Virus record (IMG/VR): IMGVR_UViG_3300014720_004069
Location: 1-53,588 of that record
DNA length: 53,588 bases
DNA from: a virus
Reading direction: 5' to 3' (one strand)
This document shows, one piece after another, positions 29,418-52,746 of this stretch. A model generated the notes under the pieces. The model saw only the letters and a program-made list of their open reading frames with translations, searched no databases and was not told where the DNA came from. Position 1 is the stretch's first letter. Each line of letters opens with the position of its first letter. The translations under genes and the position numbers were made by a program.

Positions 29418-29425
29418 AAGTTTCT

Positions 29426-30244: not shown

Positions 30245-30249
30245 TGCAA

Positions 30250-30300: not shown

Positions 30301-30345
30301 ACTATAGATCACTCTCAATAACTGCTATGGTTTTTTGCTCATGTT

Positions 30346-31014: not shown

Positions 31015-31047
31015 GTAGCACAATATAACATGAAAGTATGTTGATGT

Positions 31048-31869: not shown

Positions 31870-31870
31870 T

Positions 31871-34105: not shown

Positions 34106-34116
34106 GTTGTTAACTT

Positions 34117-35978: not shown

Positions 35979-36020
35979 CTCTGATAATTCTTGTTCTGAG
36001 TATTGATTTGGTTAAAATTT

Positions 36021-36935: not shown

Positions 36936-36943
36936 TTTTATCT

Positions 36944-37498
36944 TTAGACGTTTCTGTTCTTCAATAAGAGACAGTATATGTCGTCTTTTATGAAGGATTT
37001 AACAATTAGGCCGCTGAAAATTTCATCAATCCTTTCAACTGTCGCATCTTTCCAAAAATCTTTGCCGAAGAGTCTGACGTCGTCTATCAGAACAAGACAA
37101 CTAGTGTTCTTTGTTCTGCAAAAATTAGAAACTATCAGGCATTCTTCGATCAAGGGACAGTCCTTTTCACCTCTGCCCGTATCTCCCATGGACCAATGAC
37201 CGTCAAGCCAGAAAACAGTTTTCTTTTCTATGTTTTCTAAAATAGAAGACAGAACTTTAATGCTATCTCCAAGGTACTGTTTGGCGTTCTTGATGTTACA
37301 CGCCAAAAAGTTCTGTCGAGTTATGTTGTAATACTTTTCAGAAATTTCTATTGTGTGCATCTCATCGAACAGAGAAGATACTTTTACGCACGTTTCGCCT
37401 ACATGACTTCCTGTCTCTACAAAAGACTTGTAATCTTCTAAAGAAACTTCTAATTCCTCAGAAACTATTTTTAAGTAATCTACGTTGAGTCTTCCCAT
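36944..37498 (-). CDS. Probable SAM-dependent methyltransferase
   Basis: 184 residues from ATG 37498, with AGAGGG 6 bases before it; a longer frame to 37579 runs into the previous gene. A Rossmann-type motif FVETGSHVGETCVKVSSLF is followed by HTIEISEKYYNITRQNF, then VFWLDGHWSMGD and SCLVLIDDVRLFG, the pattern of class I methyltransferases acting on sugars or small molecules. WLDGHW resembles the metal/substrate loop of the TylF-like group. Acceptor unknown. Confidence 0.7.
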   Translation of the reverse strand: MGRLNVDYLKIVSEELEVSLEDYKSFVETGSHVGETCVKVSSLFDEMHTIEISEKYYNITRQNFLACNIKNAKQYLGDSIKVLSSILENIEKKTVFWLDGHWSMGDTGRGEKDCPLIEECLIVSNFCRTKNTSCLVLIDDVRLFGKDFWKDATVERIDEIFSGLIVKSFIKDDIYCLLLKNRNV

Positions 37499-37523
37499 GT
37501 TTCCCTCTATTAATTTAATTAAT

Positions 37524-38483: not shown

Positions 38484-39523
38484 GTCGTTAGACAAGATTC
38501 TATAATCTCATTCAGTATTGTATTCAAGTCTCTCGTGATAGTCCAATTTGGATAATGAGTCTTGAATTTTGTCATATCACTGATGTAACAGATGTGATCA
38601 CCAATCCTCGATACAGGATTGTAAGAATAATTCAATTTATACCCCAGGTTACTAAGAAGGTCAATTATCTCAATTAAAGATGCGCTGTTTCTTCTGCACC
38701 CGCCTATGTTATAGACCTCACCGGGCCTCGGAGCTTTCATAAATTCATGGAACGCTGTGCAGACATCGTATGAGTGAATTTGGTCTCTTACCTGCTTTCC
38801 TTTGTAGCCAAAGATAGTGTAGTTTTTATTTTTGACTGCGCACTTGGTTATGTAAGACAAAAATCCGTGCAATTCGACACCTGCGTGTTGAGGACCAGTT
38901 AGACAACCACCTCTAAACACTCCAACAGGCATGCCGAAATATCTGCCGTACTCTTGGGCTAATACGTCTCCCGAAGTCTTTGATGCTCCAAAAAGAGAGT
39001 GGGTCGTTTGGTCAATGGACATGGATTCGCTTATGCCATTCTTGTAAGAGACATCTTCGTATTCGTATCTCTTTTCCATCTCTATCAAACCAACTTTATT
39101 GGGAGTGTCACCGTAGACTTTGTTTGTACTCACGTGAATGAATGGAGACTCTGGGCAGTTATTTCTTGCTGCTTCAAGGACGTTTAGAGTTCCTACTGCG
39201 TTTGTGCTAAAATCTTCGAAAGGAATTTTTGCAGCAAGATCGTGTGATGGCTGTGCAGCTGAATGGATGACAAAATGAGGTCTATGGATGCTGAATAACT
39301 CATCCATCTTTTTTGCGTCTCTGATGTCACAATTTTCATGATGGTAGTTTCTGTTTTTTGTCAACTTCTCTGTTACTGACGAAGTGTCACCTCCCTCTCC
39401 GAAAAATACTTTTCTCATGTTGTTATCGATTCCGACAACTTCATGTCCTAGAGACAAGAAATATGAAGATACTTCTGACCCAATTAGTCCTGACGCACCT
39501 GTAACTAATATTTTTTTCATCAT
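38480..39523 (-). CDS. Extended SDR nucleotide-sugar epimerase/dehydratase
   Basis: 347 residues from ATG 39523 (another ATG lies 3 bases further; a TTG at 39532 extends the frame). NAD motif VTGASGLIGS, then HSAAQPSHD, HVSTNKVYGD, and SLFGASKTSGD, EYGRYFGMPVGVFRGGCLTG and GKQVRDQIHSYDV. The set is closest to the CDP-tyvelose/paratose 2-epimerase-like group. The residue at the catalytic tyrosine position of YxxxK is phenylalanine (FGASK). I recall related bacterial proteins with the same FGASK, so it may be a family trait. Product sugar unknown. Confidence 0.8.
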   Translation of the reverse strand: MMKKILVTGASGLIGSEVSSYFLSLGHEVVGIDNNMRKVFFGEGGDTSSVTEKLTKNRNYHHENCDIRDAKKMDELFSIHRPHFVIHSAAQPSHDLAAKIPFEDFSTNAVGTLNVLEAARNNCPESPFIHVSTNKVYGDTPNKVGLIEMEKRYEYEDVSYKNGISESMSIDQTTHSLFGASKTSGDVLAQEYGRYFGMPVGVFRGGCLTGPQHAGVELHGFLSYITKCAVKNKNYTIFGYKGKQVRDQIHSYDVCTAFHEFMKAPRPGEVYNIGGCRRNSASLIEIIDLLSNLGYKLNYSYNPVSRIGDHICYISDMTKFKTHYPNWTITRDLNTILNEIIESCLTT

Positions 39524-39535
39524 ATTGAACAACTG

Positions 39536-40177
39536 TTAGTCTTTCTTTTTTACTAAAGTCATGATATACAATTGTGGTCTATCAGGCCACAAAAATTTTG
39601 TTCTCATTTTGTCGACCGGGTAGTCTATTAGACAAGGTACTTCTAAAGAAACAACATTTTCAATGTTGTCGTTGTTGTTGTAACCAAAACTGGGTTCGGA
39701 CTTTACTGCCAACCAAAATTTTTTTGTTTCTTCGTCTTTCTTGAGATTATCATTCCAATAACAAGAATAAAGAAGATTATCTTCAGCATATGCGTGCTCA
39801 TGCTCTCCATTCCTTACCCAACCAACTTTATAGTCTCTAAATCGCCAATGGTCTCCGAGACCCCAGTCTACTAATAGACGACCTCCTGCTTGAAGACTAT
39901 TCATGCATCTATAGAAAAAGTCCTGTGGGTCTTTAGAGAAGTATGCACACCTAGTGCATACGATTAAGTCATAACTTTTCTGCAAAGTCCATGGAGAATT
40001 GATTTCCCAATTATCGATCGAACGATCGTAGAAGTGTCTCGTTCTACCGTTAATATGCCGTGTGAGATTGTTCTCACACGGAAATCCTAAGAAGGCAACT
40101 GAGTTCACAGAAGTGTCGTTGTAATCTCTTAAAACACTCAAATATTCTTCGAATATGAACGGATCAGACTTACCCAT
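39536..40177 (-). CDS. Class I SAM-dependent methyltransferase-like protein
   Basis: 213 residues. The fold is suggested by VAFLGFPCENNLTRHI (altered motif I without the usual GxGxG), YDLIVCTRCAYFSKDPQDFF (motif post-II strand with the aligned helix) and LQAGGRLLVDWGLGDHWRF (motif III). The weak glycine motif means it may bind SAM poorly or not at all. AAGAAG lies before the ATG. It stands between the deacetylase and the epimerase and probably acts on the same sugar chain. Confidence 0.6.
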   Translation of the reverse strand: MGKSDPFIFEEYLSVLRDYNDTSVNSVAFLGFPCENNLTRHINGRTRHFYDRSIDNWEINSPWTLQKSYDLIVCTRCAYFSKDPQDFFYRCMNSLQAGGRLLVDWGLGDHWRFRDYKVGWVRNGEHEHAYAEDNLLYSCYWNDNLKKDEETKKFWLAVKSEPSFGYNNNDNIENVVSLEVPCLIDYPVDKMRTKFLWPDRPQLYIMTLVKKKD

Positions 40178-40204
40178 TTGATCTTACTTCTTGGTATGAC
40201 TCTA

Positions 40205-40906
40205 TCATAAATTTCCTATAAATTCAAATTCGACTACTTCTTGTGAGCCTATCCAAAATTGTAGTTGCTCACTTAGCGATTTGCTTAAGTAATTTTTGTC
40301 CCACTCGCATGCGTGATAAACAATTTCATTCTTTTCATAAGCAGCTAGATCTTCGAAAGGAGGCGCCGAAGTATAATAGACAACTTTATGAAAGTTATTC
40401 TCCTCTCCAGCATAAGTGGATTTTGCGTACTCTTTTGGAGACAATGCTAAAACTTGTATGCCGGCATCTTTAGCAGCAAGGATAGACCCAGGAGACATTC
40501 TCCATGCCGGAGGTCTAAACACTGGGGAGAAGACATCTTCTAATCCACTTTCTACCACTACTCTGTTGATTTCTTTAAACTTTGCATATGCTTCTTCGTA
40601 CGACAAAAAATGAAACTCGTCGTTGTCGTTTTTTCCTGGTATTCCATGAAAGTGGCCGTGAAAACCTACTTCGAAGTTTTTCTTAGATAGACTTTTCAAA
40701 GCTTGACAAAAATGTGGGTGTTCGTACAAGTACAAGGGTTTCTCTGTTTTTACTCCTTCTCTAATAGACCTCCAGTAAGCTGTAGGAACGAAAAGCGTAA
40801 ATTTAATGTCAGGAAACTTATCGATTAACTCATGACATCTATCGAGTACATTTATGGAGGAATAAGGGTGTGGAGATACGTCGTCAATGCTTATGTTGAT
40901 TTTCAT
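40205..40906 (-). CDS. Polysaccharide deacetylase (NodB-like)
   Basis: 233 residues from ATG 40906, with GGTGG 4 bases before it; the upstream extension to 40975 lies inside the neighbouring gene. Motif 1 ISIDDVSP supplies the catalytic Asp pair, motif 2 is FHGHFHG (metal-binding histidines), and motif 3 is FRPPAWRMSPG. Such enzymes remove N- or O-acetyl groups from sugars. No signal peptide is seen, so it would act on cytoplasmic intermediates. The 23-bp overlap with the upstream glycosyltransferase suggests coupled translation. Confidence 0.82.
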   Translation of the reverse strand: MKINISIDDVSPHPYSSINVLDRCHELIDKFPDIKFTLFVPTAYWRSIREGVKTEKPLYLYEHPHFCQALKSLSKKNFEVGFHGHFHGIPGKNDNDEFHFLSYEEAYAKFKEINRVVVESGLEDVFSPVFRPPAWRMSPGSILAAKDAGIQVLALSPKEYAKSTYAGEENNFHKVVYYTSAPPFEDLAAYEKNEIVYHACEWDKNYLSKSLSEQLQFWIGSQEVVEFEFIGNL

Positions 40907-41816
40907 GTGCCCACCTTTCAAAAAAGTCCACGTACTCTCTTGCCATGTCCAAAGAAGTCCTTTCATATGAGACATTTTGCAAGTCTCTTATTCTTGATTT
41001 ATCCGACAAAATCTCTATCAGATGATCAAAATCTTCGTATTCAATTCCTCTACTCTGGCAGTACTCATTGATGCTTCCACCATCTTTATGATATAGGATT
41101 GGTAGACCTAATGCCATGGCTTCCAAGACGTGGTTCGCTCCGGCTTCTTTCTTAGATGCTGTAACATACACGTGATTTTGTGCTAGAAGTCTAGACAAAC
41201 TCTCTACGTCTTGTGGACCTATGCTGTTCTTTAGAAAGACTCCCGAAGGTTTTCTTCCGATGTATGTGAATGTTGTGTCACCTTTCGACTCACAAAATTT
41301 GTCGAGTTTTTCGTAGACGTCAAATCCTTTCATGTTGTTGTCAGACCAGTGGTGAGTCACCAACTTCATCGTTCCACCAGAATATTTTGTTGACTTCTTT
41401 GAATCAATAAATTTTTTCAGAGGAGCATTTGGAATAACAACTGAGTCTTTGATTCCGCTGATGTTGGTGAGATAATTTTTCGCCCATTCGCTGGGGAATA
41501 TTACTTTGTCCACAACGCTAGAAGTCCTCTTTAGCACTTCTAGCAAGTCAGGTTTCCCATGCGTCCCTAAATCACCTACTCTCTGTACAAAAATGTTACC
41601 GGAATTCTTTTTTGACATCAAGTCATAGAAATTCGATGCATGATTAGGTCTAGGATCCATACAAAAAATGACATCAAAATCTAAGCTAAGCTTTATATCT
41701 TCTTCAAAAAATAACTCATGACTCCTAGACTTGCATTCTTCAACTATTTCGTTTAAGACTTTAGACCCACCTCCCCAAGGACCAAGAATAGGTCTTCTGT
41801 TAAAATAGATTTTCAT
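40884..41816 (-). CDS. GT-B glycosyltransferase (GT4-like)
   Basis: 310 residues. N-terminus MKIYFNRRPILGPWGGGSKV with a Gly-rich loop, IFPSEWAKNYL, and the donor motif KKEAGANHVLEAMALGLPIL (EX7E pattern). Shorter than typical GT4 enzymes of about 370 residues, so the acceptor half is reduced. Beyond its start an 88-base AT-rich gap holds no gene. Confidence 0.8.
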   Translation of the reverse strand: MKIYFNRRPILGPWGGGSKVLNEIVEECKSRSHELFFEEDIKLSLDFDVIFCMDPRPNHASNFYDLMSKKNSGNIFVQRVGDLGTHGKPDLLEVLKRTSSVVDKVIFPSEWAKNYLTNISGIKDSVVIPNAPLKKFIDSKKSTKYSGGTMKLVTHHWSDNNMKGFDVYEKLDKFCESKGDTTFTYIGRKPSGVFLKNSIGPQDVESLSRLLAQNHVYVTASKKEAGANHVLEAMALGLPILYHKDGGSINEYCQSRGIEYEDFDHLIEILSDKSRIRDLQNVSYERTSLDMAREYVDFFERWAHENQHKH

Positions 41817-41904
41817 TAAAAATTTTGCTCTTTTCTTTAATGTGTGTTATTTCATCTTAGAGTGATAGTAACAAATTTCTATAAGACAGACGAATAACCT
41901 GCTA

Positions 41905-42012
41905 TCAACTTAAGAGATCAGTGATGTCAAACCAATTTTGAAACTTGACCATGTCGTCTCTAAAGTTTCCTGGTGTGGATCTCCAGTTATCGTAAATTTC
42001 ACTTTCGTTCAT
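41905..42012 (-). CDS. Possible 35-residue protein
   Basis: An ATG 2 bases after the stop of the upstream glycosyltransferase opens a 35-codon frame ending at 41905. The text (ESEIYDNWRSTPGNFRDDMV, then FQNWFDITDLL) looks protein-like, with an amphipathic C-terminal helix, and it fills a gap that would otherwise be 200 bases long. It may be a small protein or the remains of a longer gene. No ribosome site stands out. Confidence 0.35.
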   Translation of the reverse strand: MNESEIYDNWRSTPGNFRDDMVKFQNWFDITDLLS

Positions 42013-42014
42013 TC

Positions 42015-42947
42015 TCAAATCTTTTCTATTAGATGTCTATAGGACTCGTATCCTCGAGGTATCAACCATCGATCGTCTATCCGAGGTATTTCGGGAAGTG
42101 AAAAATAAACGTCGTCGTTGATCGATTCTTCAGGAAGTACTTGACTTGCAATTCCTACGTCTCGGGACACTACAGGAATTTTTAGCAAGCCACACTCTAT
42201 TAGTGACTGTGGTCCACCTTCGTCTCTTGAAGTGACTGGGTATAAATCTAAAGTCTGATAGAGATCTTTAAGTACAGACTGATTTGGTCTCTCAAAATAC
42301 GTGTAGCTTACACCGATTTCTTTTAGTCTCGATATGACGTACTGGCGCCGCCATCCCGCCAAGACAACGTGAACTTCACGTGGATTAACCTTGGTATCTC
42401 CGTAATCTTTTCCCTCTTTGAATAACTTTTCAACGAAGTCTGCAAAGAGATCAGGACCCTTTTCCAGTTTTGGTGACCTAAGATCAAATCCTTCGGTGTC
42501 TCTCTGAAATGAACCTACGAGGAAAGAATCTACCGGAAGAGAATACTTCCTTCTCAACTGAATTCTGTCTCCTGTGGAGGTCCACAGTCTTTGGTTCGCC
42601 CAGTACGGGATGAGAATCACAGGTTTCTTTGTGTGTAACTCTACGATATCTTTCGTCTTTTTGTTGTAGACGTGATACTCGGTGACGTACTGGTCTCTTT
42701 CCCTAAAGTCTTTCTTCTTTGATTCGTCGAATTTTTCAGGTACAATGTGATGAACCGTCGCTATCACTTTTTTCTTGGAGAGAACATCGTGAGGAACGTG
42801 TCTCCAGCACCAGCTTGCAAGCAACCAGATAACGTCTGCGTCTCTTGGGTCAGCAGTTGTAATGTCGGAGTTATCTTCAGACCACTCTTTGACGAATCTA
42901 TCGACTATCCAATCCTCATTTGCTGTCAATAGAAAAACTTTTCTCAT
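42015..42947 (-). CDS. GT-B glycosyltransferase
   Basis: 310 residues. The N-terminal half has VFLLTANEDWIVDRFVKEW and DADVIWLLASWCWRHV; the second half starts LVGSFQRDTEG and has the donor-site motif TSRDEGGPQSLIECGLLKIP, with the acidic residues of GT4 enzymes. It overlaps the upstream gene by ATGA. Donor and acceptor unknown. Confidence 0.78.
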   Translation of the reverse strand: MRKVFLLTANEDWIVDRFVKEWSEDNSDITTADPRDADVIWLLASWCWRHVPHDVLSKKKVIATVHHIVPEKFDESKKKDFRERDQYVTEYHVYNKKTKDIVELHTKKPVILIPYWANQRLWTSTGDRIQLRRKYSLPVDSFLVGSFQRDTEGFDLRSPKLEKGPDLFADFVEKLFKEGKDYGDTKVNPREVHVVLAGWRRQYVISRLKEIGVSYTYFERPNQSVLKDLYQTLDLYPVTSRDEGGPQSLIECGLLKIPVVSRDVGIASQVLPEESINDDVYFSLPEIPRIDDRWLIPRGYESYRHLIEKI

Positions 42948-43303
42948 GATCGCTTCTTGACTTCATGAACAAAAATTGGAGAGAACGCAGTTCCATTGAA
43001 CATCGTAGCGAGCATCGCCAGTTCTTTTGTCGTTATGTTTTCTAGCTTGGCCCTCTTGTCAAAGATGTTCGGATCGAGATCTTCATTTCCGTTGATGTTG
43101 ACGGAATCGTAGTACATCTGTGCGAGTAAATTGACTGCCTCGTTTGTGATAGGTATCTGCGACTCCTGAAAGACCTCAACGAGACAATTGAATATGTCGG
43201 TGTAGATGGAGATACACGTGGAGGAGTTGAGCTTCTCCTCCTTGTAACCTTCTAGTTTATTGATTAAAAGTTTGCTTAATGACTCATGTATTTGTTTCTT
43301 CAT
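42944..43303 (-). CDS. Uncharacterised helical phage protein
   Basis: 119 residues, mostly helical. Notable segments: SLSKLLINKLEGYKEEKLNS, YTDIFNCLVEVFQES, EAVNLLAQMYYDSVNING and TTKELAMLATMFNGT. It lacks enzymatic motifs and is clearly unlike the glycosyltransferases on either side. AGGC lies 5 bases before the ATG, and it overlaps the upstream gene by 20 bp and the downstream one by 4. I have the impression of similar proteins in T4-like marine phages but cannot name them. Confidence 0.6.
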   Translation of the reverse strand: MKKQIHESLSKLLINKLEGYKEEKLNSSTCISIYTDIFNCLVEVFQESQIPITNEAVNLLAQMYYDSVNINGNEDLDPNIFDKRAKLENITTKELAMLATMFNGTAFSPIFVHEVKKRS

Positions 43304-44198
43304 TTTTGCCTGACGTCTCCCAGAGGCAATCGATGTACTTCTTTGCTACCTCTTTTATGTCCACCGTAGATTCTAATCCATTCCTATTCGACTTGGACAA
43401 ATCGAGTTTGGGAGGTCTGTACAGGTCGAGAGGTCTCATGTCCCACTCAACATCTTGTATCACTGTGGAGTCAGGACCTGATATCTCTCTTGTTCCTCCC
43501 GAAGACGAGACGACTATGTCACAACCGGATGCTCTTGCGTCCACCACGACATTTGGGCAGTGATCTAAGAATGCGAGGTGGATGAAAACTTTCGATCTCT
43601 TGTAGAGAGATATGCACTTCTCCCAGGGAAGGTGGCCTGTGTAGAGTATTCTCGGATCGTTCACGTAGTGATCGGGATTCTCACCTGCAACTACGAGACA
43701 GGCATCGCTCGGAGCTTTCTCGAGGAAATACCTGATGTTCTCGCTCAAACGCTTGTGAGGACGCCAGGAAGACGAGCAGGTCCACACCTCTGAGAACTTA
43801 TCGAGTATTGGATCCTCGAGCGGCTCGATTCTCGTCACACAGTCCAGACAAGTTCCATTGCCTATCACGACGGACTTTTTGACTCCGAAGTACTTCTCTG
43901 TGAGATTCCTGTTGAATTCAGACTGGTACACTATGAGATCTGCAGCTTCGAAAGACTTCTTGATCGGAGCATTATTAAACTCCCAGTCTTGTCTTGTGTT
44001 GAAGTAGATGCCATCGAGTCTAAGAGCAAGTGGTGCAATTTTTCTCGATGCCGTTATGAAAGAGAGCTGTACATCGGCCTCTGAGTCGACGAACCTGAAC
44101 TTATCTCCCATCTTCATGATCTGAGTCTTGAGTCTCTTGCCAAAAGAATTAGGACCGGACGAAGAATTCAGATCGACATTGTCTAGAAATATCTTCAA
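43284..44198 (-). CDS. GT-B glycosyltransferase
   Basis: 304 residues from a TTG that overlaps the previous stop by TTGA; AGAGGG lies 8 bases upstream, supporting this unusual start. The protein has MKIFLDNVDLNSSSGPNSFG (Gly/Ser phosphate loop), VVIGNGTCLD, TCSSSWRPHKRL (start of the second Rossmann half) and FLDHCPNVVVDARASGCDIV, a donor motif in which the usual Glu pair is partly replaced by Cys/Asp. It probably transfers a nucleotide-activated sugar; the altered motif leaves activity uncertain. Confidence 0.75.
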   Translation of the reverse strand: MKIFLDNVDLNSSSGPNSFGKRLKTQIMKMGDKFRFVDSEADVQLSFITASRKIAPLALRLDGIYFNTRQDWEFNNAPIKKSFEAADLIVYQSEFNRNLTEKYFGVKKSVVIGNGTCLDCVTRIEPLEDPILDKFSEVWTCSSSWRPHKRLSENIRYFLEKAPSDACLVVAGENPDHYVNDPRILYTGHLPWEKCISLYKRSKVFIHLAFLDHCPNVVVDARASGCDIVVSSSGGTREISGPDSTVIQDVEWDMRPLDLYRPPKLDLSKSNRNGLESTVDIKEVAKKYIDCLWETSGKNEETNT

Positions 44199-44938
44199 GG
44201 AATGTACCCTCTTGCTCTTATTGTCTCAGCTGACATCTTCTGTTTGATCGATCTCTCGTTCGTGAACAGATTCTTGTTGGACAGGTCTATGTTGTAATGG
44301 TATCCTAATATGGGAACGAATTGCAATTTCTTCCCTTCGAGGTGGGAGAGGTACATCATAGGCAGGAATACAGCTTGATCGCATGCGATCATGATGTAGT
44401 CACCATTTTCGTCCCGAAAGTTTGCATCAGGGACTTTCTTGAGTTGTCCGCATCGAAAAGTCTTTAGATGACTGGACACCCATGGATGTTGGTATACCGT
44501 CTGTCCTGCCTTTAAGTTCATGTGTCCCGATATGTTTTGTGTAGTGTAGCTCCAACGATGTGCAGTCCATGCAACTGCAACTGAATTATCTCGATAGACA
44601 TCATTTAGTACGTAGAGAAGGTCGTTCTCTGTCAACCAATCTCCGCCGTCAAGTCTACATACCACATCTCCGTCATCAATGGATTTGACAGACTCGAGTG
44701 TGTTTCTTACCTCTCCGTGTTTTTCTCTGTTGTCTATCAGAGTGAACCTATCTCTAAATTTCTTGGGTAGAGATCCACATGTCTCTCTCACAAGTTGATC
44801 AGTTCCATCGGTCGACATGTCATTTATGAGAACAGCTCTCCAGTTGTCATAACTCTGAGACAGCATGGAAAATATTGTTTTTTCCATGTCTTCTATGCAA
44901 TTGAAGTATGGAATTATGAAAACGAATTTATTGATCAC
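44195..44938 (-). CDS. GT2 glycosyltransferase
   Basis: 247 residues from a GTG overlapping the previous stop (GTGA). GT-A motifs: FVFIIPYFNCIEDMEKTIFS, INDMSTDGTDQL and CRLDGGDWLTEND in the DxD position, with an Asp-Gly-Gly-Asp loop. The C-terminal half includes MIACDQAVFLPMMYLS, in the place of the acceptor-side acidic motif. Co-translated with the large fused glycosyltransferase upstream. Confidence 0.83.
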   Translation of the reverse strand: MINKFVFIIPYFNCIEDMEKTIFSMLSQSYDNWRAVLINDMSTDGTDQLVRETCGSLPKKFRDRFTLIDNREKHGEVRNTLESVKSIDDGDVVCRLDGGDWLTENDLLYVLNDVYRDNSVAVAWTAHRWSYTTQNISGHMNLKAGQTVYQHPWVSSHLKTFRCGQLKKVPDANFRDENGDYIMIACDQAVFLPMMYLSHLEGKKLQFVPILGYHYNIDLSNKNLFTNERSIKQKMSAETIRARGYIP

Positions 44939-46872
44939 GATTCTGCTTTCTTGAAAAGAAACAGCTGAGTCATGTAAGAAGGTTCATTCTTCTTCAACTT
45001 CACCCAAGGCGTGGGTTTATTGAAGTCTATTCTGTCATGAAAGATCCAGCCACCCATTTCATTTTTCATCCTAGCAGCAATGTTTCTAATCTCGTCGTCA
45101 CTGACGTCCGACCATTTCTTGTCGAAGAACTTGTTGTTTTCAGGAACATCTTCTTGCACTTGATTATAGAGACTAGTCCAATGTTTTGACCAGAAATTCT
45201 TGTATGTGTGAATCTTTCTCTCTAGATCGTACCAAGAATAGTGATAAACGCCTGGTATGTTCTCGACGACATTATTCATCCAATTTTCGTATGACACTAG
45301 AGCATCCTTGTTACCCATGAGAGCATGCCGGCGAGTATTCTCCACTTCATTGTTGTAAAAAGTAACATATGGAACGTTCTCTAGAGTATCGGAGTAGATG
45401 TAGTCGTCTCCGTCAGATCCAGCAGAGTACATCGTACCTTCAGCGTCAAATCTTCTATGACTTTTTGGAAGACCATGAGTTATCTTTGGATTATTTCTGC
45501 TGAGACGCCATTTCCATGGATTGACGTCGACTCTAATTTTGTCACTTCCACCCCAATACTCTATTACAGGAAGAGCTATGAGATCGACTCCCTTTGGGAA
45601 ATTTTTTGCAAGATCTATTATCTTCAGTGCGTCGTCCTCATGGACAACTTCGTCAATGTCTACTTGCCAACAGAATTCTCCTGTGCACTTCTTTCTCGCT
45701 TCTGCTTTTTGCTGACCGTTGAAGAGAGCAAATCTCTTGTCATCCCAGTCTCTGGTGAACTGGAATGGTTTTACTCTTGGATCTATCAACTGTATCTCTA
45801 GAAGACGCTCCCATGTACCGTCTGTAGAACCTCCGTCTACAACTACAACTTCATTACAGAAAGCTAAGATAGACTTAATAGACTGTTCCCAAGGATATTT
45901 CTGCTCTATGCAATTTCTGGTCTGTGTATAACCGCTTATTGTAGGTTTGTAGTCCATTATTTTACTAATTGCCTTCCAAAAAAGATCAGGTGTCGTCGAC
46001 AGATAGTCTTCTATCAAAGATACGTCATCTGTCGAGAACCATTCTTCATCTTTGTGTTGAACATGTTCATTTATATGAAGCTTGCATCCAAGAAGTTTAG
46101 CTTCTATTACCATCCTGGGGCAAGTGTCTCCTCCTGCTGGCAGGTATACAAATCCTTCAGCTGCAGACATCTTCGCAAGTAATTTGTCATAAGGAATATT
46201 CCAAACTACTTCATATTCTTTCTTGTTATCTTCGCACCACTTCTTTGCAGACTCAAAGCCTTTGACCCAAGACTGAGAGCCAAGAACTATCCAACCTTTC
46301 TTCTCTTCTGACTTTATAGACTCGCGCAAGATTCTGAGAGTTGATAAAGTCTTTTTTGAGAACACAGAAGAAAGAACTATGTTGTCTTTCTCTGACAAGA
46401 ACGGGAATAAACAATGATACTTATCTTTTTGCTTCTCAGACATCCACCAAAGAGCTTGAGCACCGTAGTAGAAAGCTGATATCAACTTTCCATTGATCTG
46501 TTCATGGCAGTCACAAATACTTCCTGTTGCAAATTTATGTTTTTCTGGGGACCTAAACTTACAGTATTTGTAGTCGTATTCCAGGACAGTGTACTTCAAA
46601 TTTGCTACGATGCTTGGAATCAACTCGGGATTCATTTGTGAAAAATTACCAAAGATCCAAAATTTCTTTACACCTTGACTTAGAGTTGCCAAGTTTACAT
46701 CTCTTGAATGTAACTTCTGAACCTTGTAAGGTGAAGAAGAGATGATTGACTCTGAAGTCATCTCTGCTCCTCCTGCATAGTCTTCTTCAAAGAGATCTGC
46801 CACAAAAACTACGTCGACATCTTCTCTTATTATTTTATTTGGGTTCACAAATATCTGATCAGCAAAATTCAT
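44935..46872 (-). CDS. Two-domain glycosyltransferase (GT-B plus GT2)
   Basis: 645 residues with two catalytic folds. Residues 1-310 look like a GT-B protein (VVFVADLFEEDYAGGAEMTS, a central GSQSWVKGFESAKKW and FVYLPAGGDTCPRMVIEAKL). Residues 320-560 are a GT2 domain (EVVVVDGGSTDGTWERL, CWQVDIDEVVHEDD with DxD-type acids, and an HRRFDAEG turn). A linker rich in aromatic residues closes the protein. It is the first gene of the leftward run and would be made in highest amount. Two-headed enzymes often build disaccharide units. Confidence 0.82.
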   Translation of the reverse strand: MNFADQIFVNPNKIIREDVDVVFVADLFEEDYAGGAEMTSESIISSSPYKVQKLHSRDVNLATLSQGVKKFWIFGNFSQMNPELIPSIVANLKYTVLEYDYKYCKFRSPEKHKFATGSICDCHEQINGKLISAFYYGAQALWWMSEKQKDKYHCLFPFLSEKDNIVLSSVFSKKTLSTLRILRESIKSEEKKGWIVLGSQSWVKGFESAKKWCEDNKKEYEVVWNIPYDKLLAKMSAAEGFVYLPAGGDTCPRMVIEAKLLGCKLHINEHVQHKDEEWFSTDDVSLIEDYLSTTPDLFWKAISKIMDYKPTISGYTQTRNCIEQKYPWEQSIKSILAFCNEVVVVDGGSTDGTWERLLEIQLIDPRVKPFQFTRDWDDKRFALFNGQQKAEARKKCTGEFCWQVDIDEVVHEDDALKIIDLAKNFPKGVDLIALPVIEYWGGSDKIRVDVNPWKWRLSRNNPKITHGLPKSHRRFDAEGTMYSAGSDGDDYIYSDTLENVPYVTFYNNEVENTRRHALMGNKDALVSYENWMNNVVENIPGVYHYSWYDLERKIHTYKNFWSKHWTSLYNQVQEDVPENNKFFDKKWSDVSDDEIRNIAARMKNEMGGWIFHDRIDFNKPTPWVKLKKNEPSYMTQLFLFKKAES

Positions 46873-46902: not shown

Positions 46903-46935
46903 CTCTAGAAAGTACTGACAGCTGAGGAAATGTAT

Positions 46936-47445
46936 ATGAAGAAAAAGCCATCATCCACCGCTTTGTCTGTTCAGAGATCACTAAAAAAAACAGACGCTCT
47001 TGATGAGATTAGTAAGAAACTATCATCAAGCTCGGCTCTCAACGGTGGATTTGAGACTCTTCTCTTCAAGATCGACAAGATTGAGCAGAGTCAAGGGCAG
47101 CTGGTCTCTAAAGTCGATAAGATTCATGATGCAATCTACGATCCTTCTGATGGAATATTTTCTAAGCTAGGTGAATACAAATTAGAGAATGCAAGTAAAG
47201 TAAATGAGATAGAACAGAGTATAAATGAGCTTAGTCTTTGGAAAGAAACTAAGAGTAAAGAAGAAGACAAAGCTGAGAAGATAGAAGACAAGACAAAAGA
47301 AAAACTGTCAAACTTAGAAAAATCTGTCGACTCTCTTGTGAGGAACAAAAATAACATTTGGGACATCTTAAAGTGGCTTTTTGTTGCAATTGGAGGAGGA
47401 ATTATAACTTTGACAGTGAAATGGATAGAGTCGAAGATTCATTGA
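46936..47445 (+). CDS. Coiled-coil protein with C-terminal membrane anchor
   Basis: 169 residues from ATG 46936. I prefer it to the ATG at 46930 because GAGG (46924-46927) then lies 8 bases away. The basic N-terminus is followed by helical heptad-like stretches (LLFKIDKIEQSQGQLVSKVD, then a Lys/Glu-rich coil with EEDKAEKIEDKTKEK) and one hydrophobic segment near the end (WLFVAIGGGIITLTV) closed by KWIESKIH. It resembles phage proteins anchored by a C-terminal helix with a cytoplasmic coil. Function unknown; a role in membrane or lysis control is possible. Confidence 0.65.
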   Translation: MKKKPSSTALSVQRSLKKTDALDEISKKLSSSSALNGGFETLLFKIDKIEQSQGQLVSKVDKIHDAIYDPSDGIFSKLGEYKLENASKVNEIEQSINELSLWKETKSKEEDKAEKIEDKTKEKLSNLEKSVDSLVRNKNNIWDILKWLFVAIGGGIITLTVKWIESKIH

Positions 47446-47476: not shown

Positions 47477-48604
47477 GTGGAAACGGAAGCTATAATAACA
47501 ACACTCAAAAACTTCTTACATAAGAACGTAGACATTGAGTTTTCTTTAGAAAACATTTCTGGGCTTCTTCGTTCTAGAAGAAGACTACAGCATGTCATGC
47601 TCATGAAGCACCACGATATTGAAGTTCAAAAGTTTTTTGAGCTACTTTTAACTTACGCAATAAACGCTGAGAAAAGAACTCCTAGCGCAGGATTAACTTT
47701 TTTGAAGCTCTTCTTGACGAATAAAAAAGATGAACAAAAGACAATCCGGACCAGAAAAGAACTAGAAGTCCTTCTCCGGAGTCTAGGTCACGAAAATTTC
47801 GTCTCTCATATGTTGCTAGAGAGCTTAGACCTAGTCGACTCCAATACAAGATTTTCTGTAAGAAAATCTTCCAATCAAAAGTCGTACATCGAAAAAACTG
47901 ATGGATACAAGTTTTCTGTAAAGAGTCTTCTAAAATCAAAAAATTTGTCTTTAAAAGTCTGCAGAGTTTTGTGTGTGGACGGCTACATAGAAAACGTTTC
48001 CGAGATACACCATTTACTCACTGAGCTGAGCGAAAAAAAAGTACCTTGTCTATTTTTTACTAGGGGCATGTCTGACGACGTTCTTCACACAGTTAAAGTC
48101 AACAATGACAGAAAGACCGTGCATGTAGTTCCTTTTTCAGTGCCTTTCGATGCTGAGAATGTCAATACGATAGTAGACATTGCTGTTTCAACTGGTACGG
48201 ATGTAGTATCTTCTCTCAAGGGAGAATTGATATCTTCTTGCAAGTACGAAAATCTGGGGCGTTGTGAAGAAGCAATTATCGATGGAGGAAACGTCGTAAT
48301 CAAGAACGCTAAAATTTCTAACAGGGTCGATCTTCATATTTCTTCTCTAAAAGAACAATTAGAATCGAAGAAAGGTCTGGAAGAGATACTCAGTAAACGT
48401 TTGCAGAGCCTATCTTCTTCTTGTGTCGACGTCTATATCCCTGACGACTTCTCTTACTTCCACAGAAGTAGTCAATTCGACGAAGGAATAAGGATCATAT
48501 CGTCTGTTCTCAACAACACTTTCTCCCCAGAAAAAGTTGCGAGAGATACTCTAGAATCTTTTGAAAAATTTGTAAGTAGCGTCGCTTTGTTTACTGTTTC
48601 TTGA
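47477..48604 (+). CDS. Divergent GroEL-like protein keeping the apical domain, ATPase part degenerate
   Basis: 375 residues from a GTG. Residues 141-320 line up with the GroEL intermediate and apical domains: DGYKFSVKSL (GroEL GMQFDRGYLS region), VLCVDGYIENVSEIHHLL, VPCLFFTRGMSDDVLHT-VKVN, VHVVPFSVPF, NTIVDIAVSTGTDVVSS, then a LGRCEEAIIDGGNVVI segment and a helix pair ending LSKRLQSLSSSCVDVYI, as GroEL has RVAKLAGGVAVI. The end VARDTLESFEKFVSSVALFT matches GroEL's last equatorial helices. The N-terminal 130 residues lack the GroEL GPKGRNV and DGTTT nucleotide loops (TPSAGLT stands in place of the latter). GroEL has about 548 residues; this is much shorter. It is probably not an ATP-driven folding ring by itself. 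Possible roles: a subunit joining host GroEL, a substrate-binding adaptor, or a virion protein. Confidence 0.6.
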   Translation: METEAIITTLKNFLHKNVDIEFSLENISGLLRSRRRLQHVMLMKHHDIEVQKFFELLLTYAINAEKRTPSAGLTFLKLFLTNKKDEQKTIRTRKELEVLLRSLGHENFVSHMLLESLDLVDSNTRFSVRKSSNQKSYIEKTDGYKFSVKSLLKSKNLSLKVCRVLCVDGYIENVSEIHHLLTELSEKKVPCLFFTRGMSDDVLHTVKVNNDRKTVHVVPFSVPFDAENVNTIVDIAVSTGTDVVSSLKGELISSCKYENLGRCEEAIIDGGNVVIKNAKISNRVDLHISSLKEQLESKKGLEEILSKRLQSLSSSCVDVYIPDDFSYFHRSSQFDEGIRIISSVLNNTFSPEKVARDTLESFEKFVSSVALFTVS

Positions 48605-48846
48605 AACTTTCTAATGTAGATTACATGAATACGATAGACAAGATTTCACGGGATGCAAAATTACTTTTTGTCGACAGCATGAAGGATGCTGTCAGTTCTA
48701 ACTTGGTCACAGCTGCTAAGAACGGAGACATTAGCTTAACAGAAGATCAGCTTCGACATTTAATCAATGTCTTTATTCTTTCTGTAGATCAGACGTATCA
48801 AAAAACTCTTCCGAACTTTCAAAACACAATCAAGAAGTACTTCTAA
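48601..48846 (+). CDS. Small uncharacterised protein
   Basis: 81 residues if it starts at the TTG at 48601, which makes a TTGA overlap with the previous stop; an ATG at 48625 is the alternative. Neither has a clear ribosome site. The protein is helical: NTIDKISRDAKLLFVDSMKD, then LTEDQLRHLINVFILSVDQT and a basic end. It is followed with no gap by the next gene. Function unknown. Confidence 0.55.
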   Translation: MKLSNVDYMNTIDKISRDAKLLFVDSMKDAVSSNLVTAAKNGDISLTEDQLRHLINVFILSVDQTYQKTLPNFQNTIKKYF

Positions 48847-49319
48847 TGAGAGGTCAGAGACATCTCATTAAGTGTAGGTGCGTCCTACCTCAATACAAAG
48901 TCTTTCCTAACCCACCAGTCCATCAGTTTTTGGTATTTTCTGTCATAGGAGATGACGAAAGTGTGAAGGTGAAGTTTGCTCAGTGCAATAACTGCGGTAT
49001 CATCCATAAGGTGACAGATATATGCACTTCTGAGATCCTTCCTGGCAAAGAAGCCATGGGTTCCATTGTCAAGATTGAAGACGTGAAGACATCTCTTCCT
49101 CCCAACCTCTCTGACATCCTCGAGCGCAACAATTGTGATCTTCCAACGTGGGAACAAGCTCAATTCATCCTCGAGAACAAGCAGTGGGGAAATTTTGTCG
49201 TCCTCGCCGTCGAAGAAGAGGCTGGTATAAAGCAGGGAAAGTATGTTAGGATCATGAGTGAGACTTTCTTCAAGGTGGAACCTTTCACAAGAGAAGAAGT
49301 CGCAGTACCATCGGAGTAA
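48846..49319 (+). CDS. Uncharacterised protein with a four-cysteine zinc site
   Basis: 157 residues; the ATG overlaps the previous stop codon by one base. Cysteine pairs CRC (residues 10 and 12) and CNNC (47 and 50) sit in strand-turn contexts typical of a zinc ribbon; a fifth Cys lies at about 60. The second half is helical and acidic (DLPTWEQAQFILENKQWGNF and a VRIMSETFFKVEPF strand). It could be a transcription or replication co-factor. I do not recognise the family. Confidence 0.6.
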   Translation: MRGQRHLIKCRCVLPQYKVFPNPPVHQFLVFSVIGDDESVKVKFAQCNNCGIIHKVTDICTSEILPGKEAMGSIVKIEDVKTSLPPNLSDILERNNCDLPTWEQAQFILENKQWGNFVVLAVEEEAGIKQGKYVRIMSETFFKVEPFTREEVAVPSE

Positions 49320-49321
49320 AC

Positions 49322-49570
49322 ATGTCAGAGATATACGGACAACTGGAGTCTGAGAAGCTGGCCGCCGACAACAAGGTGGCCCACGAGATAGTTCGTGAGA
49401 TCAACCACTTCGGAATCAGCGACCGGCAACGGTGGCTCATCATCTACTACCTCGGCCTAGAACTCGAGAACGTGGAAGAGATGAAGGAGCTCACAGGTTT
49501 CGTGAAGGAGTTCAAGGGGTCGGACCTCTTCATCTCCAAGATCTACGGTGCAAACGAAGGAGACGAGTGA
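49322..49570 (+). CDS. Small uncharacterised helical protein
   Basis: 82 residues, GGAG 5 bases before the ATG. Helical throughout (KLAADNKVAHEIVREINHFG, RQRWLIIYYLGLELENVEEM) with an acidic end. The text FGISDRQRWLIIYYL recalls sigma or HTH-type dimer helices, but no clear DNA-binding motif can be defended. Its stop overlaps the clpP start (TGATG), so the two are translationally coupled, and it may act as a ClpP partner. Confidence 0.6.
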   Translation: MSEIYGQLESEKLAADNKVAHEIVREINHFGISDRQRWLIIYYLGLELENVEEMKELTGFVKEFKGSDLFISKIYGANEGDE

Positions 49571-50169
49571 TGGGAAGACAAGTTACAAACTCCGCGAGAG
49601 TGACCAGCAACAAGAGTAACAGCGATGAATCTTCCACAACCATGGGCATCGCGATGGGAGACTCTCAACGCCTCGTGGTCCTCCACGGTGAAGTTAACGA
49701 GGCGTCCATCTCCTTGGTGGTTGCTCAGTTACTCCACCTCGCATCGCAGAATCATAAGCCCATCCACCTCGTGATCTCTACGTATGGCGGATCGGTGGAC
49801 GAGATGTTCACACTGTACGATACCATCAAGTTCCTCCCATGTCCAGTCCACACGATTGCCCTTGGAAAGGTGATGAGTGCAGGAGTACTCCTCCTCGCAA
49901 CCGGTGCCAAGGGAAAGAGGATGATCGGTCGGAATGCTCGAGTGATGATTCATCCTATCTCCGGTGGAGTTGGAGGTAATGTGTTCGAGGTGATCAATGA
50001 GTCTAAGGAACACAAGCGCATGCAGGACCAGATGGTGAATGCTATCGTCCGCGAAACAAAGGGCTCCAAGACCGAGATCGAGAAGATCATGAAGTCCGGA
50101 CACGACTTCTACCTCCTGCCAGAACAGGCCGTTAAACTCGGGATCGTGGACAAAATCATCGGTGACTGA
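49570..50169 (+). CDS. ClpP-like serine protease
   Basis: 199 residues, close to cellular ClpP. The start is the ATG at 49570 with AAGGAG 9 bases upstream; a longer frame from 49432 is a shadow of the preceding gene. The fold is clear: LHGEVNEASISLVVAQLLHL, VISTYGGSVDEMFTLYD (oxyanion strand), ALGKVMSAGVLLLATGAKGKR with Ser103, RVMIHPISGG with His128, and Asp179 in SGHDFYLLPEQA before KLGIVDKII, giving the catalytic triad. No ClpX/ClpA-type unfoldase is in the window, so it may use the host's, or mature phage proteins such as prohead components. The N-terminus (residues 1-25) is a disordered Ser/Asn-rich leader instead of the usual short propeptide. Confidence 0.88.
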   Translation: MGRQVTNSARVTSNKSNSDESSTTMGIAMGDSQRLVVLHGEVNEASISLVVAQLLHLASQNHKPIHLVISTYGGSVDEMFTLYDTIKFLPCPVHTIALGKVMSAGVLLLATGAKGKRMIGRNARVMIHPISGGVGGNVFEVINESKEHKRMQDQMVNAIVRETKGSKTEIEKIMKSGHDFYLLPEQAVKLGIVDKIIGD

Positions 50170-50213: not shown

Positions 50214-51863
50214 ATGCCTAAACATGACTACGTGAGGTATTTTCCATTTGACCGTATCCGTCCCGAACAACGAAAGGCGATTGAATTCGCTCTCGATGCT
50301 TATGAGTCCGGCAAGAAGGCAGTCCTCCTAGAAATGGGAACGGGGACGGGAAAGTCCGCCACAGGTATCTGCATCGCCCGTTACATGGAGGCCCACGCCC
50401 CTGTGATTAAGGATGAGGAGGGAATGCCTCTCACCGGTGCATACGTGATCACCACCCAGAAGATTCTCCAGGAACAGTACATGGATGACTTTGGGCCTCA
50501 ATCCGGACGAAACCTCATCCGCACCATCAAGTCAGCATCCAACTACCGATGCAAGCACTACTCCGATAATTCTTGTTCTGAATCGAAGCGGTTGCTTCAG
50601 AAACTTGGCAAGCAGGTGGCCGGCACAGACTTCGCGAAGACTTGCAAGAATGAGTGCACGTACTCCCTGGAAAAACAGGACTTTATCGAGTGTCCAATCT
50701 CCATCACGAATTTCTCCTATTTTCTGGCGGAGACCACGTACGCAGGAAAGTTAACTCCTCGAGCCCTCCTGGTAGTTGATGAGTGCCACAACACGGAAAC
50801 AGAGCTGGGTAAGTTCATCGAGGTGAGTTTCTCTGAGAAGTTCGCTAGAGATGTTCTCAAGTGTAAGATACCGAAGCTGGACACACAGGAGGCAGTTCTC
50901 GAGTGGGTGAAGGGCCCGTACCGCAAGGCGGTGAACAAGTACGTTAGAGAGTTGGAGAAGAACCTCGTGAGGCTCTCAGATTCTGAAGGCCAAGGTGAGT
51001 TCTCGAAGCAGTACGAGATGCTCGAGAAGCACACAGGTAAGATTGATCAGTTCATCGAGGTGTACAACCCAACCAATTGGGTGATGAATGTGGCCTATCC
51101 ACAGGAGGGCAATCGCAGGGGAGCCCGTAAGTTCGAATTCAAACCTGTGGATCTGGGACCATACTCACAGAAGGTGTTCCTTCGATCTGGTGCTCGAACG
51201 CTGATGATGAGTGCCACCGTTGTGGACCACGAGGTGTTCTGCAAATCCATCGGCCTAGATCCTGCCGATGTTGCCTACCTCCGCATCGGATCTCCCTTCC
51301 CCGTGGAGAACAGGCCGGCACACTACATTCCCGTGGGTTCCATGGGCAGAGATGCCATCGACAAGACCCTTCCGGTGATGGCCGAGGCGGTCATGATGAT
51401 ACTCGATAAACATCCGAATGAGAAGGGCATCATCCATACTGCCAACTATAAAGTTGCCAAGTATCTAGTCGAGAACGTAAAGACCAACAGGTTCCTCACA
51501 CACGAGTCTGGCAACAGGGACGAGGTGCTTAAATTCCATGTGACCTGCTCCGAACCTACGGTTCTCTTGTCTCCATCGATGATGGAGGGCGTTGACCTCG
51601 CCGATGATGCTTCACGTTTTCAGATACTCTGCAAGGTTCCCTTTCCGTACCTCGGAGACCTCGTGATCAAGAAGCGGATGGAGAAGGACAAGATGTGGTA
51701 TCCCTACACGACTGCGAAGTCAGTGATCCAGGCCTTCGGTCGATCCATCCGAAACGAGAAAGACCACGCAGTCTCCTACATTCTCGATGCCGATTGGGAC
51801 AGGTTCTACTCTCGAAACCTCCACATGTTTCCACAGGAGTTCAGGTCATCCTTCGTCAAATAG
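50214..51863 (+). CDS. XPD/DinG-family DNA helicase with Fe-S-type cysteines
   Basis: 549 residues. Walker A GTGTGKS at residues 42-48 and DECH at residues 189-192 (motif II), SATVV as motif III, and QAFGRSIRNEKDH as motif VI near the end. Between motifs I and II cysteines 113, 121, 144, 148 and 160 provide more than enough ligands for the 4Fe-4S cluster that XPD-type helicases use to open DNA. Length is shorter than E. coli DinG (716) but close to XPD-like phage helicases. Expected role: 5'-3' unwinding during phage replication or repair, including R-loop removal. Confidence 0.85.
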   Translation: MPKHDYVRYFPFDRIRPEQRKAIEFALDAYESGKKAVLLEMGTGTGKSATGICIARYMEAHAPVIKDEEGMPLTGAYVITTQKILQEQYMDDFGPQSGRNLIRTIKSASNYRCKHYSDNSCSESKRLLQKLGKQVAGTDFAKTCKNECTYSLEKQDFIECPISITNFSYFLAETTYAGKLTPRALLVVDECHNTETELGKFIEVSFSEKFARDVLKCKIPKLDTQEAVLEWVKGPYRKAVNKYVRELEKNLVRLSDSEGQGEFSKQYEMLEKHTGKIDQFIEVYNPTNWVMNVAYPQEGNRRGARKFEFKPVDLGPYSQKVFLRSGARTLMMSATVVDHEVFCKSIGLDPADVAYLRIGSPFPVENRPAHYIPVGSMGRDAIDKTLPVMAEAVMMILDKHPNEKGIIHTANYKVAKYLVENVKTNRFLTHESGNRDEVLKFHVTCSEPTVLLSPSMMEGVDLADDASRFQILCKVPFPYLGDLVIKKRMEKDKMWYPYTTAKSVIQAFGRSIRNEKDHAVSYILDADWDRFYSRNLHMFPQEFRSSFVK

Positions 51864-51918: not shown

Positions 51919-52122
51919 ATGAGTGATAACCCAATTGCATCGAAGTGGAGTGAGTTGAAGTCCCTAGTTGAAGCTCTCGAGGCCGATGTTGCCAAGAACG
52001 CAAAGGGCGTAGCGGCTGCTGGTGTCCGGGCTCGTAAGGGCCTTCGACAACTTCAGACAAGCGCTAAGGAGCTTGTGAAGCTAACGCTCGATACTGATAA
52101 GACGAAGAAGGAAGATAAGTGA
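51919..52122 (+). CDS. Histone H1-like (Hc1-type) DNA-binding protein
   Basis: 67 residues. The stretch WSELKSLVEALEADVAKNAK, followed by AAAGVRARKGLRQLQTSAKE, matches the Hc1/H1-like pattern of bacteria: a charged helix, an AAGxRxRKGLxxL turn-helix and a basic Lys-rich end (TDKTKKEDK, mixed with acids). Such proteins coat DNA. A terminator follows directly, so the gene forms its own small unit with the promoter at 51865. A role in packing phage DNA or shaping the infected-cell nucleoid is inferred. Confidence 0.7.
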   Translation: MSDNPIASKWSELKSLVEALEADVAKNAKGVAAAGVRARKGLRQLQTSAKELVKLTLDTDKTKKEDK

Positions 52123-52169: not shown

Positions 52170-52490
52170 ATGAACATGAGAGCAAGATCAGTAATACTCA
52201 GAGACCTTGCCGATAAAGGTCTTGATACTAGCGTAGCTTATACTGCTGGGAAGAATGGATCCTATGTGCAGAAAAAGAAGTCAGAAGTGAAGACGGCAAA
52301 AGCAGATGTTTCAAAAATAGAAACGACTAACTCTGAAAAAGAGGAATTGGTCGTATCGCAAGAAATTGAAGCTATAAATGTTGTCAAAGAAGAAACATCT
52401 TTAACTGAAAAGTCGATTAAGAAGAAGTCTCCTCCTCCAAAGAAGAAGAAGTCTGAAGAGCCGTCTCCTACTGCTCCTATTGACGAATAA
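52170..52490 (+). CDS. Low-complexity Lys/Glu-rich protein
   Basis: 106 residues. The first 30 (MNMRARSVILRDLADKGLDT) could fold into a short helix pair; the rest is Lys/Glu/Ser/Pro-rich and ends in a KKKSPPPKKKKSEEPSPTAP-type tail, probably disordered. GAGG lies 5 bases before the ATG. Such charged, proline-containing tails suggest nucleic-acid or protein contact, not catalysis. It overlaps the convergent gene by 14 bp. Confidence 0.55.
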   Translation: MNMRARSVILRDLADKGLDTSVAYTAGKNGSYVQKKKSEVKTAKADVSKIETTNSEKEELVVSQEIEAINVVKEETSLTEKSIKKKSPPPKKKKSEEPSPTAPIDE

Positions 52491-52746
52491 AACTTCTAAT
52501 CTTCTGATAGATGTTCTTTTCTATCTGACAGATCCTCATCCTCGTCAGGCCGTAGATCTTCCCTATCTCGTTTAGGGTTAAAGGTCCGGCCTGAGTTGTT
52601 ATCATTAGACAATTTTTTCCTTGAGGGAAATCTACCCATTGCTTGCACGACTTTCTCTCACACTTGCTGTTGTGCTTGTCAACAGCCTCATAGCAAGTCA
52701 TTCCAACAACAGGTAACTTTATTTTTTTCTCGTGTGTGTTGCTCAT
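52477..52746 (-). CDS. Small zinc-type / sigma region-4-like regulator
   Basis: 89 residues. The first part has cysteines 18, 29, 34 and 46 (CYEAVDKHNSKCERKSC and NCLM), enough for a zinc site. The second part (residues 56-84) is LTLNEIGKIYGLTRMRICQIE followed by a basic helix, which is the sigma-70 region-4 helix-turn-helix pattern that normally contacts the -35 element and the polymerase beta flap. In T4 the gp33 protein fills the place of region 4 beside gp55. This protein may be the functional partner of the gp55-like sigma factor at 25798-26637. It lies alone on the minus strand, divergent from PIN-PhoH. A TGCTAAAAT extended -10-like sequence lies about 20 bases before the ATG. Confidence 0.7.
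   Translation of the reverse strand: MSNTHEKKIKLPVVGMTCYEAVDKHNSKCERKSCKQWVDFPQGKNCLMITTQAGPLTLNEIGKIYGLTRMRICQIEKNIYQKIRSFIRQ

Follow-up and report, generated by a model that had tools for sequence, protein, structure and literature searches.

A shrunken GroEL-like gene on a viral contig

The stretch of DNA analysed here in full (hereafter, the window) is a virus record of 53,588 bases. The frame proposed in the preliminary description was recovered where it had been placed, from its GTG start to a stop codon ending at position 48604, and a second IMG/VR contig encodes the same 375-residue protein at 100% identity. The gene is flanked by small genes of its own strand, followed by genes for a protease and a helicase (Table 1).

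Table 1. Features of the GroEL-like gene, its product and its neighbours in the window
Feature	Position	Strand	Remarks
Coiled-coil-like protein cc171, C-terminal hydrophobic segment (by eye)	46930..47445	+	phrog_1193, phage 'hemolysin', weak match, E 5.3e-6
Shrunken GroEL-like protein	47477..48604	+	375 aa, GTG start, without ATP site
Shrunken equatorial remnant, residues 1-90	47477..47746	+	Alignment to E. coli GroEL and secondary structure of the model; GPKG and DGTTT loops absent
Intermediate domain, N-terminal part, residues 91-142	47747..47902	+	hhalign to GroEL from 135 onwards
Apical domain, residues 143-314	47903..48418	+	5cdj_B, Z 24.0, rmsd 1.8 over 172 residues
Altered apical groove, residues 168-212	47978..48112	+	Corresponds to GroEL helices H and I; top conservation
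C-terminal intermediate segment and terminal helix, residues 315-375	48419..48601	+	GroEL 414-492 missing
Small protein g81, no known family	48601..48846	+	Overlaps the end of the GroEL-like gene
g157, invariant C-x-C and C-x-x-C pairs	48846..49319	+	Model with pLDDT 89.7
Small protein g82, no known family	49322..49570	+	
ClpP-like protease, ATG 49570	49570..50169	+	PF00574, E 2.5e-41 (queried from 49564)
DinG-type DNA helicase	50214..51863	+	phrog_2488, E 6.5e-108

The relationship to GroEL claimed previously is borne out by several independent profile searches, which exclude chance or composition as the source of the match. Residues 94-321 match phrog_5725, 'chaperonin groEL' (E 2.3e-19), whereas among NCBIfam models GroEL3_Chlamy (E 1.7e-16) and the GroEL model TIGR02348 (E 3.6e-13) are retrieved, all NCBIfam scores lying far under the curated cut-offs. 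A phmmer search against PDB chains yields a best E-value of 4.8e-10. With a profile of the whole family of short forms (see below) the best PDB match is again GroEL (E 7.7e-27), and profile-profile comparison with hhalign aligns the family to GroEL residues 135-415 (E 6.4e-18). Pfam Cpn60_TCP1 is absent among the matches of the window protein and, at E 0.01, matches one of the 53 family members, while phrog_5725 is matched by 42 of them at the same threshold. Judged from these comparisons, the short GroEL is a distant relative by descent, and one that is easily overlooked. A match to UMPH-1 (E 0.017) was rejected: its score does not reach that family's own cut-off, and the 50 fold matches listed include no UMPH-1 protein.

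Predicted structure

The AlphaFold2 model of the window protein, built from 53 family members, has a mean pLDDT of 90.7 and a pTM of 0.78. All 50 Foldseek matches listed for it are chaperonins of the GroEL/Hsp60 type (best E 2.2e-22). VIA-align superimposes residues 1..375 of the model on residues 10..525 of 4v4o_C, the Thermus Cpn60 in its GroES-bound complex, with Z 24.9 and an rmsd of 3.7 Å over 374 residues, and the apical part of the model agrees with GroEL apical fragments at 1.6-2.5 Å. Overall the model is nearer to the raised-apical form (TM 0.75 to 4v4o) than to apo GroEL (0.47 to 1ss8). Strands 22-27 and 30-35 are kept where GroEL has its equatorial hairpin. A search of a viral structure library gave nine matches under E 1e-3, all of them 511-782 aa long.

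The preliminary description had aligned residues 141-375 with the intermediate, apical and terminal helices of GroEL. That alignment stands, but its extent was too narrow: because residues 1-90 match a shrunken equatorial domain in the model, the whole protein is, on this prediction, chaperonin-derived, with an equatorial domain of about half the usual size. Over residues 141-320, for which a missing apical fold or an unrelated family had been considered, the model contains an apical domain and the profile searches lead to GroEL. The intermediate domain is split into residues 91-142 and 315-345 and is followed by the terminal helix (346-375), all borders being approximate.

ATP site and ring contacts

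To compare functional positions, 53 distinct short forms were mapped on E. coli GroEL (L084). The DGTT motif is present in none of the 53, an absence that is independent of the alignment. G32 and P33 of the GPKG loop are deleted in all 53 and no short form has Asp at position 52, 87 or 398, although at such low identity the exact placement of single N-terminal columns is uncertain. Columns 414-492 are reduced to a median of 3 residues. The lack of the DGTTT and GPKG loops noticed earlier in the window protein thus extends to all 53 distinct relatives. In the inter-ring region 434-461, E434 and E461 are deleted in 53/53 short forms and R452 in 52/53; of the other ring contacts, by the alignment used, R197 is changed in 53/53 and K207 and E386 are deleted in 52/53. 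Taken at face value, these sequences would neither bind nor hydrolyse ATP, and the short form would not be an ATP-driven folding machine. The inter-ring interface likewise appears to be lost.

A conserved apical groove with altered contacts

In GroEL the apical groove binds greasy peptides and GroES, and polar changes of single contacts abolish client binding. The corresponding residues 168-212 are the best conserved part of the short form, with a mean JSD of 0.60 compared to 0.45 in the rest of the apical domain and 0.33 in residues 1-90. They hold 18 of the 38 most conserved columns (P 5.7e-9, an optimistic value since the region was picked after seeing the alignment). We considered eight positions, which we take to be the classic GroEL contacts: Y199, Y203, F204, L234, L237, L259, V263 and V264. 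Only three are clearly lost. Y199 is deleted in 49/53 short forms, the equivalent of L234 is His in 38/53 and Asn in 15/53, and that of V263 is basic in 41/53 (Lys in 37, Arg in 4). Four stay mostly hydrophobic: the L237 equivalent is Leu in 42, Phe in 10 and Met in one of the 53, that of V264 is aliphatic in 44 (V 39, I 4, L 1), that of L259 is aliphatic or Met in 38 (L 26, I 8, V 3, M 1), and the commonest residues at Y203 are L (18), I (10), F (5), V (3) and Y (3). The F204 column is a gap in 21/53 sequences, and N265 is kept as Asn in all 53.

Because the strictly conserved surface has its central contacts turned polar, we infer that the groove would accommodate one specific ligand and not many unfolded clients. 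Peptide binding may persist, as the equivalents of L237, V264, L259 and Y203 are mostly hydrophobic.

Relatives, distribution and selection

A single-sequence scan of viral contigs returned nothing beyond the identical copy. Scanning via the neighbouring DinG helicase gave 18 loci, 12 of which hold a short GroEL at the equivalent place (L007, L008, L010, L011, L014-L018, L020, L023 and L024). Five others (L009, L012, L013, L019 and L021) end before that position, and L022 has no short GroEL within the locus, the same contig carrying one further on. A search with an alignment of 11 sequences then extended the family to 58 viral loci, the identical copy of the window's gene included, with 53 distinct proteins.

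The open reading frames are intact at all 58 loci (369-436 aa), and dN/dS is 0.07-0.18 in 11 measurable pairs, some of which share near-identical members. The short form is under purifying selection. A FastTree phylogeny over 374 columns, with 86 full-length and 54 short proteins, places all short forms in one clade (support 1.0). The stem of this clade is very long (1.5) and its sister placement is unreliable, so that descent from a particular GroEL clade was rejected as a conclusion. Gene decay or faulty assembly could be suspected from the loss of about half of the equatorial domain; either explanation is extremely improbable in view of the intact frames, the low dN/dS and the single well-supported clade, and a pseudogene was rejected on the first two of these.

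A tblastn search of 50,697 phage records with the window protein matched 10 records. Four of them are annotated as GroEL, five of the six unannotated ones contain a frame of 537-541 aa with DGTT and thus encode full-length GroEL, and the sixth (H9) has the same match coordinates and record length as H8. Hence only full-length GroELs, established for nine of the 10 matching records, and no short form were found in this collection; tblastn with g157, or with the L062 and L083 short forms, matched none of the same records. The first scan of prokaryote genomes gave no confirmed short GroEL and the second a single locus, in a metagenome-assembled genome (MAG) of Halobacteriovorax; a single-sequence scan with the short form of G011, a distant phage, retrieved only itself. 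On the MAG contig, seven of the 183 ORFs match window proteins and further ones, such as PhoH and PrkA, resemble phage genes by eye, so that a phage has probably been mis-binned here. This 101-kb contig (G072 contig 25, PBIO01000025.1) resembles part of a giant-phage genome and may hint at the host.

No report of an ATPase-less or short phage GroEL was found among the titles and abstracts listed in literature searches that took in few subscription papers and preprints, and we know of no earlier case in phages of an ATP-less chaperonin branch with a rewired binding face. The view that the protein is a new type is supported inasmuch as these searches found no counterpart among named phage proteins; 'new' here means absent from the literature and sequence searches made in this work.

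Gene neighbourhood

At the 58 loci, some of which are cut by contig ends, the short form is accompanied by g157 (58/58), g82 (54/58), DinG (53/58; upstream in L083), ClpP (50/58) and g81 (43/58), whereas cc171 (49/58) and a divergent glycosyltransferase gene (52/58) lie upstream. The distant phage G011 keeps the order short form-g81-g157-g82 and has no ClpP and DinG between, and the MAG contig carries the same unit with one insert. In both, a g81 profile detects the gene behind the short form (E 5.6e-5 in G011, E 3.9e-9 in the MAG contig) and profiles of g157 and g82 confirm these two genes, while cc171 and ClpP profiles have no match at either unit. The short form-g81-g157-g82 array is the old core of the unit. 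As the companion found at every locus, g157 represents a conserved orphan family; its invariant cysteine pairs likely form a zinc site, and its model has no match in the PDB (best E 0.12, Z under 5).

Comparison of the window with the close relative L038 reveals an uneven pattern of divergence: identity is 99-100% in g82, ClpP and DinG, 82% in g157 and 91% in the glycosyltransferase, as opposed to 56% in cc171, 41% in the short form and 38% in g81. The cc171-short form-g81 segment is a variable block. Fast positive selection behind the 41% identity was rejected, dN/dS being low in the measurable pairs, though these are other, more alike pairs. Because of these low values, exchange of old alleles is likelier than fast divergence. 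Of the 21 gene pairs compared, the short form and g81 show the strongest co-variation (partial rho 0.69); g82-ClpP reaches 0.62 and GroEL-g82 0.60. Linkage correlates neighbours anyway, and neither these values nor the shared neighbourhood prove contact.

In L062 and L045 a minus-strand gene of 364-529 aa, low-complexity by eye, is located between the short GroEL and g81, and tblastn finds it at 15/58 loci.

Full-length GroEL in the same phages

Beside the short form, G010, G014, G015 and G017 encode a full-length GroEL (open frames of 545-552 aa, phrog_5725), and records G011 and G060 also carry both forms. Full-length GroEL is thus present in 5/5 short-form records of at least 250 kb and in 6/8 of at least 200 kb (G010, G011, G014, G015, G016, G017, G018 and G060), with the qualification that G060 was found via its full-length GroEL and G011 via DinG, so that neither is an unbiased draw. 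In G016 (213 kb) and G018 (200 kb), perhaps fragments, it was not found. Conversely, G061 and G062 (at least 200 kb) and nine smaller records have the full-length form only, and all of these may be fragments. G014 (L032), the nearest large relative of the window, whose short form is 41% identical, is among the records with both genes; the window itself is a 53.6-kb fragment.

The full-length GroELs of G010, G011, G014, G015 and G017 keep G32, P33, D52, DGTTT, D398, G414, G415 and D495, and all five keep the hydrophobic groove. In the six records with both forms the two genes are 86-178 kb apart. GroES (PF00166) was found in 0/59 records, which are mostly fragments and do not include G060-G071, whereas the control search matched 11/14 genomes; a co-chaperonin as divergent as T4 gp31 could go undetected with PF00166.

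Proposed role and alternatives

Our preferred reading of the sequences, to which we give slightly less than an even chance, is that this ATPase-less chaperonin paralogue is a dedicated, ATP-independent docking adaptor beside the phage's own GroEL. In one lineage of giant phages, a single ancient event would have produced a second, half-size GroEL that kept the intermediate and apical domains together with a portion of the equatorial one, but could no longer bind or hydrolyse ATP or form the inter-ring interface. Its apical groove would have turned into a more polar and strictly conserved surface on which one particular partner docks, and the protein would act as an adaptor or holder beside the complete GroEL, most likely in complex with the small proteins encoded next door, g81 in the first place. 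The computations themselves show the fold, the lost ATP site, the conserved and altered groove, the co-occurrence with full-length GroEL, the conserved gene unit and purifying selection; that the groove serves for docking, which partner it has and whether the protein touches full-length GroEL is what we infer. Among the three roles proposed in the preliminary description (an adaptor, a poison or insert of host GroEL rings, and a virion protein reusing the fold), the adaptor agrees best with the data, since conservation is highest in the groove and two of its central contacts have turned polar. It fits less well with the partial persistence of the equatorial remnant, which a pure apical adaptor would not need, and with G016 and G018, where full-length GroEL was not seen.

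The main rival, and the most interesting one, is that the short form is a subunit, cap or regulator of the phage GroEL ring, which binds via its equatorial remnant or closes the ring as GroES does, without ATP. We assign it a modest chance, well below even. Co-occurrence of both forms in all the largest short-form records, the raised-apical, GroES-bound arrangement of the model and the retained strands of the equatorial hairpin speak for such a part, which would also explain why GroES was not found. However, the chaperonins of phages EL, OBP and AR9 reportedly work without a co-chaperonin (PMC9598537), so that the lack of GroES needs no substitute, and co-chaperonins resembling T4 gp31 could have escaped the Pfam model. 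Moreover, in the alignment used the residues that make contacts within and between rings are replaced or missing, and the two genes lie far apart. The short form may also insert into the phage's own GroEL ring. A combination of docking and ring function may also be envisaged, namely a two-part chaperonin without GroES, in which an ATP-driven GroEL would be joined by the ATPase-less paralogue docking as lid, selector or regulator and presenting one dedicated phage client or membrane partner; we consider it rather unlikely.

It is unlikely, too, that the short form is a natural minichaperone, that is, an ATP-independent holdase for phage proteins comparable to the isolated GroEL apical domain. 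That isolated domain recognises non-native proteins (PMC4973282), the apical fold of the model is close to it and half of the eight contact positions are mostly hydrophobic, but most short forms carry His/Asn in place of L234 and Lys/Arg in place of V263. A virion protein, or an assembly chaperone dedicated to the adjoining tail/fibre region, would suit the location at the border of a long minus-strand block of tail and glycosyltransferase genes. It would also suit the strong divergence of the variable block between close relatives, since host-range parts often differ in this way. However, the gene is on the strand of the ClpP and DinG genes downstream of it, whereas the tail genes run the other way, and we regard this role as quite unlikely. 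A poison or hijacker of host GroEL rings would share the fold of its target, and a phage with its own GroEL could afford blocking that of the host; yet the ring-contact residues are not kept in the alignment used, nothing here ties the short form to host GroEL, and any such activity must allow for the phage's own full-length protein. This role is very improbable.

Comparison with known chaperonins

The short form has the intermediate and apical domains and the whole-chain fold in common with Group I GroEL/Cpn60 (phrog_5725, TIGR02348). It differs from these proteins of about 540 aa in its length of 369-436 aa, the missing ATP site, the missing region 414-492 and the altered groove. EL gp146, OBP gp246 and AR9 gp228 are likewise GroEL relatives of giant phages, for which activity without a co-chaperonin is reported (PMC9598537, PMC7185714); the phage chaperonins described in these papers are full-length and ATP-dependent. 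Those proteins are full-length ring ATPases, a type that the phages studied here encode in addition, by another gene, and the short form, by its length and lost ATP site, is no full-length ATP-dependent subunit of their kind. Soil viral chaperonins are covered in PMC8390657.

Diverged paralogues beside a canonical chaperonin are also known as MKKS, BBS10 and BBS12. According to PMC2846930, MKKS and BBS12 have an altered Gly-Asp-Gly-Thr motif, and the prediction is that they do not assemble into the usual ring. MKKS, BBS10 and BBS12 belong to the eukaryotic Group II lineage and keep the three-domain structure. On our side, the best 60 of the 67 PDB chains matched by the family profile are all Group I, and the tree held Group I sequences only. 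The Fab1_TCP domain of PIKFYVE, which has a binding role, differs from the short form in residing inside a lipid kinase and in being of Group II type. This domain is likewise chaperonin-derived and sits in a protein that is no folding ring (named in PMC2846930). The GroEL minichaperone (apical domain 191-376) shares with the short form an apical domain without ATPase; it is engineered and has the full hydrophobic groove, whereas the short form is natural, has a partly polar groove and contains further domains.

Few molecular machines have been studied as thoroughly as chaperonins, whose essence is seen in cycling driven by ATP. A widespread, conserved phage branch that has dropped the ATP engine while retaining a rewired binding face, accompanied by a normal GroEL in the largest records, would allow clean tests of what an apical domain achieves by itself and of the way in which a folding machine becomes an adaptor.

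Other observations on the phage genomes

On the minus strand of the window, positions 26934-46872 hold glycosyltransferase-like genes beside tail genes. Those at 26934-28172 and 44935-46872 were recognised by profile and those at 43284-44198 and 44195-44938 by eye; a profile search with 34117-35259 remained without match. Positions 51919-52122 encode a small basic protein that is Hc1/histone H1-like by eye, and 52477-52746 a small minus-strand protein that resembles sigma region 4 by eye. Look-alikes of both are found in L088 (5071-5268 and 5346-5600), behind the same short-GroEL unit.

Many otherwise unlike small proteins of these giant phages share an N-terminal helix-like motif of the LRxxIxE type (e.g. 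LRRIIKEE, LREYIREL). It occurs at L175-L179 (G072 contig 25), in L086 (208-549, 4240-4458 and 4852-5139) and in L087 (4970-5185), and within the first 60 residues in none of the 57 window ORFs. On G072 contig 25, it lies in the first 60 residues of 18/183 ORFs, as against 2 matches in the 19,487 residues elsewhere, and has the appearance of a common tag for targeting, the capsid being a conceivable destination.
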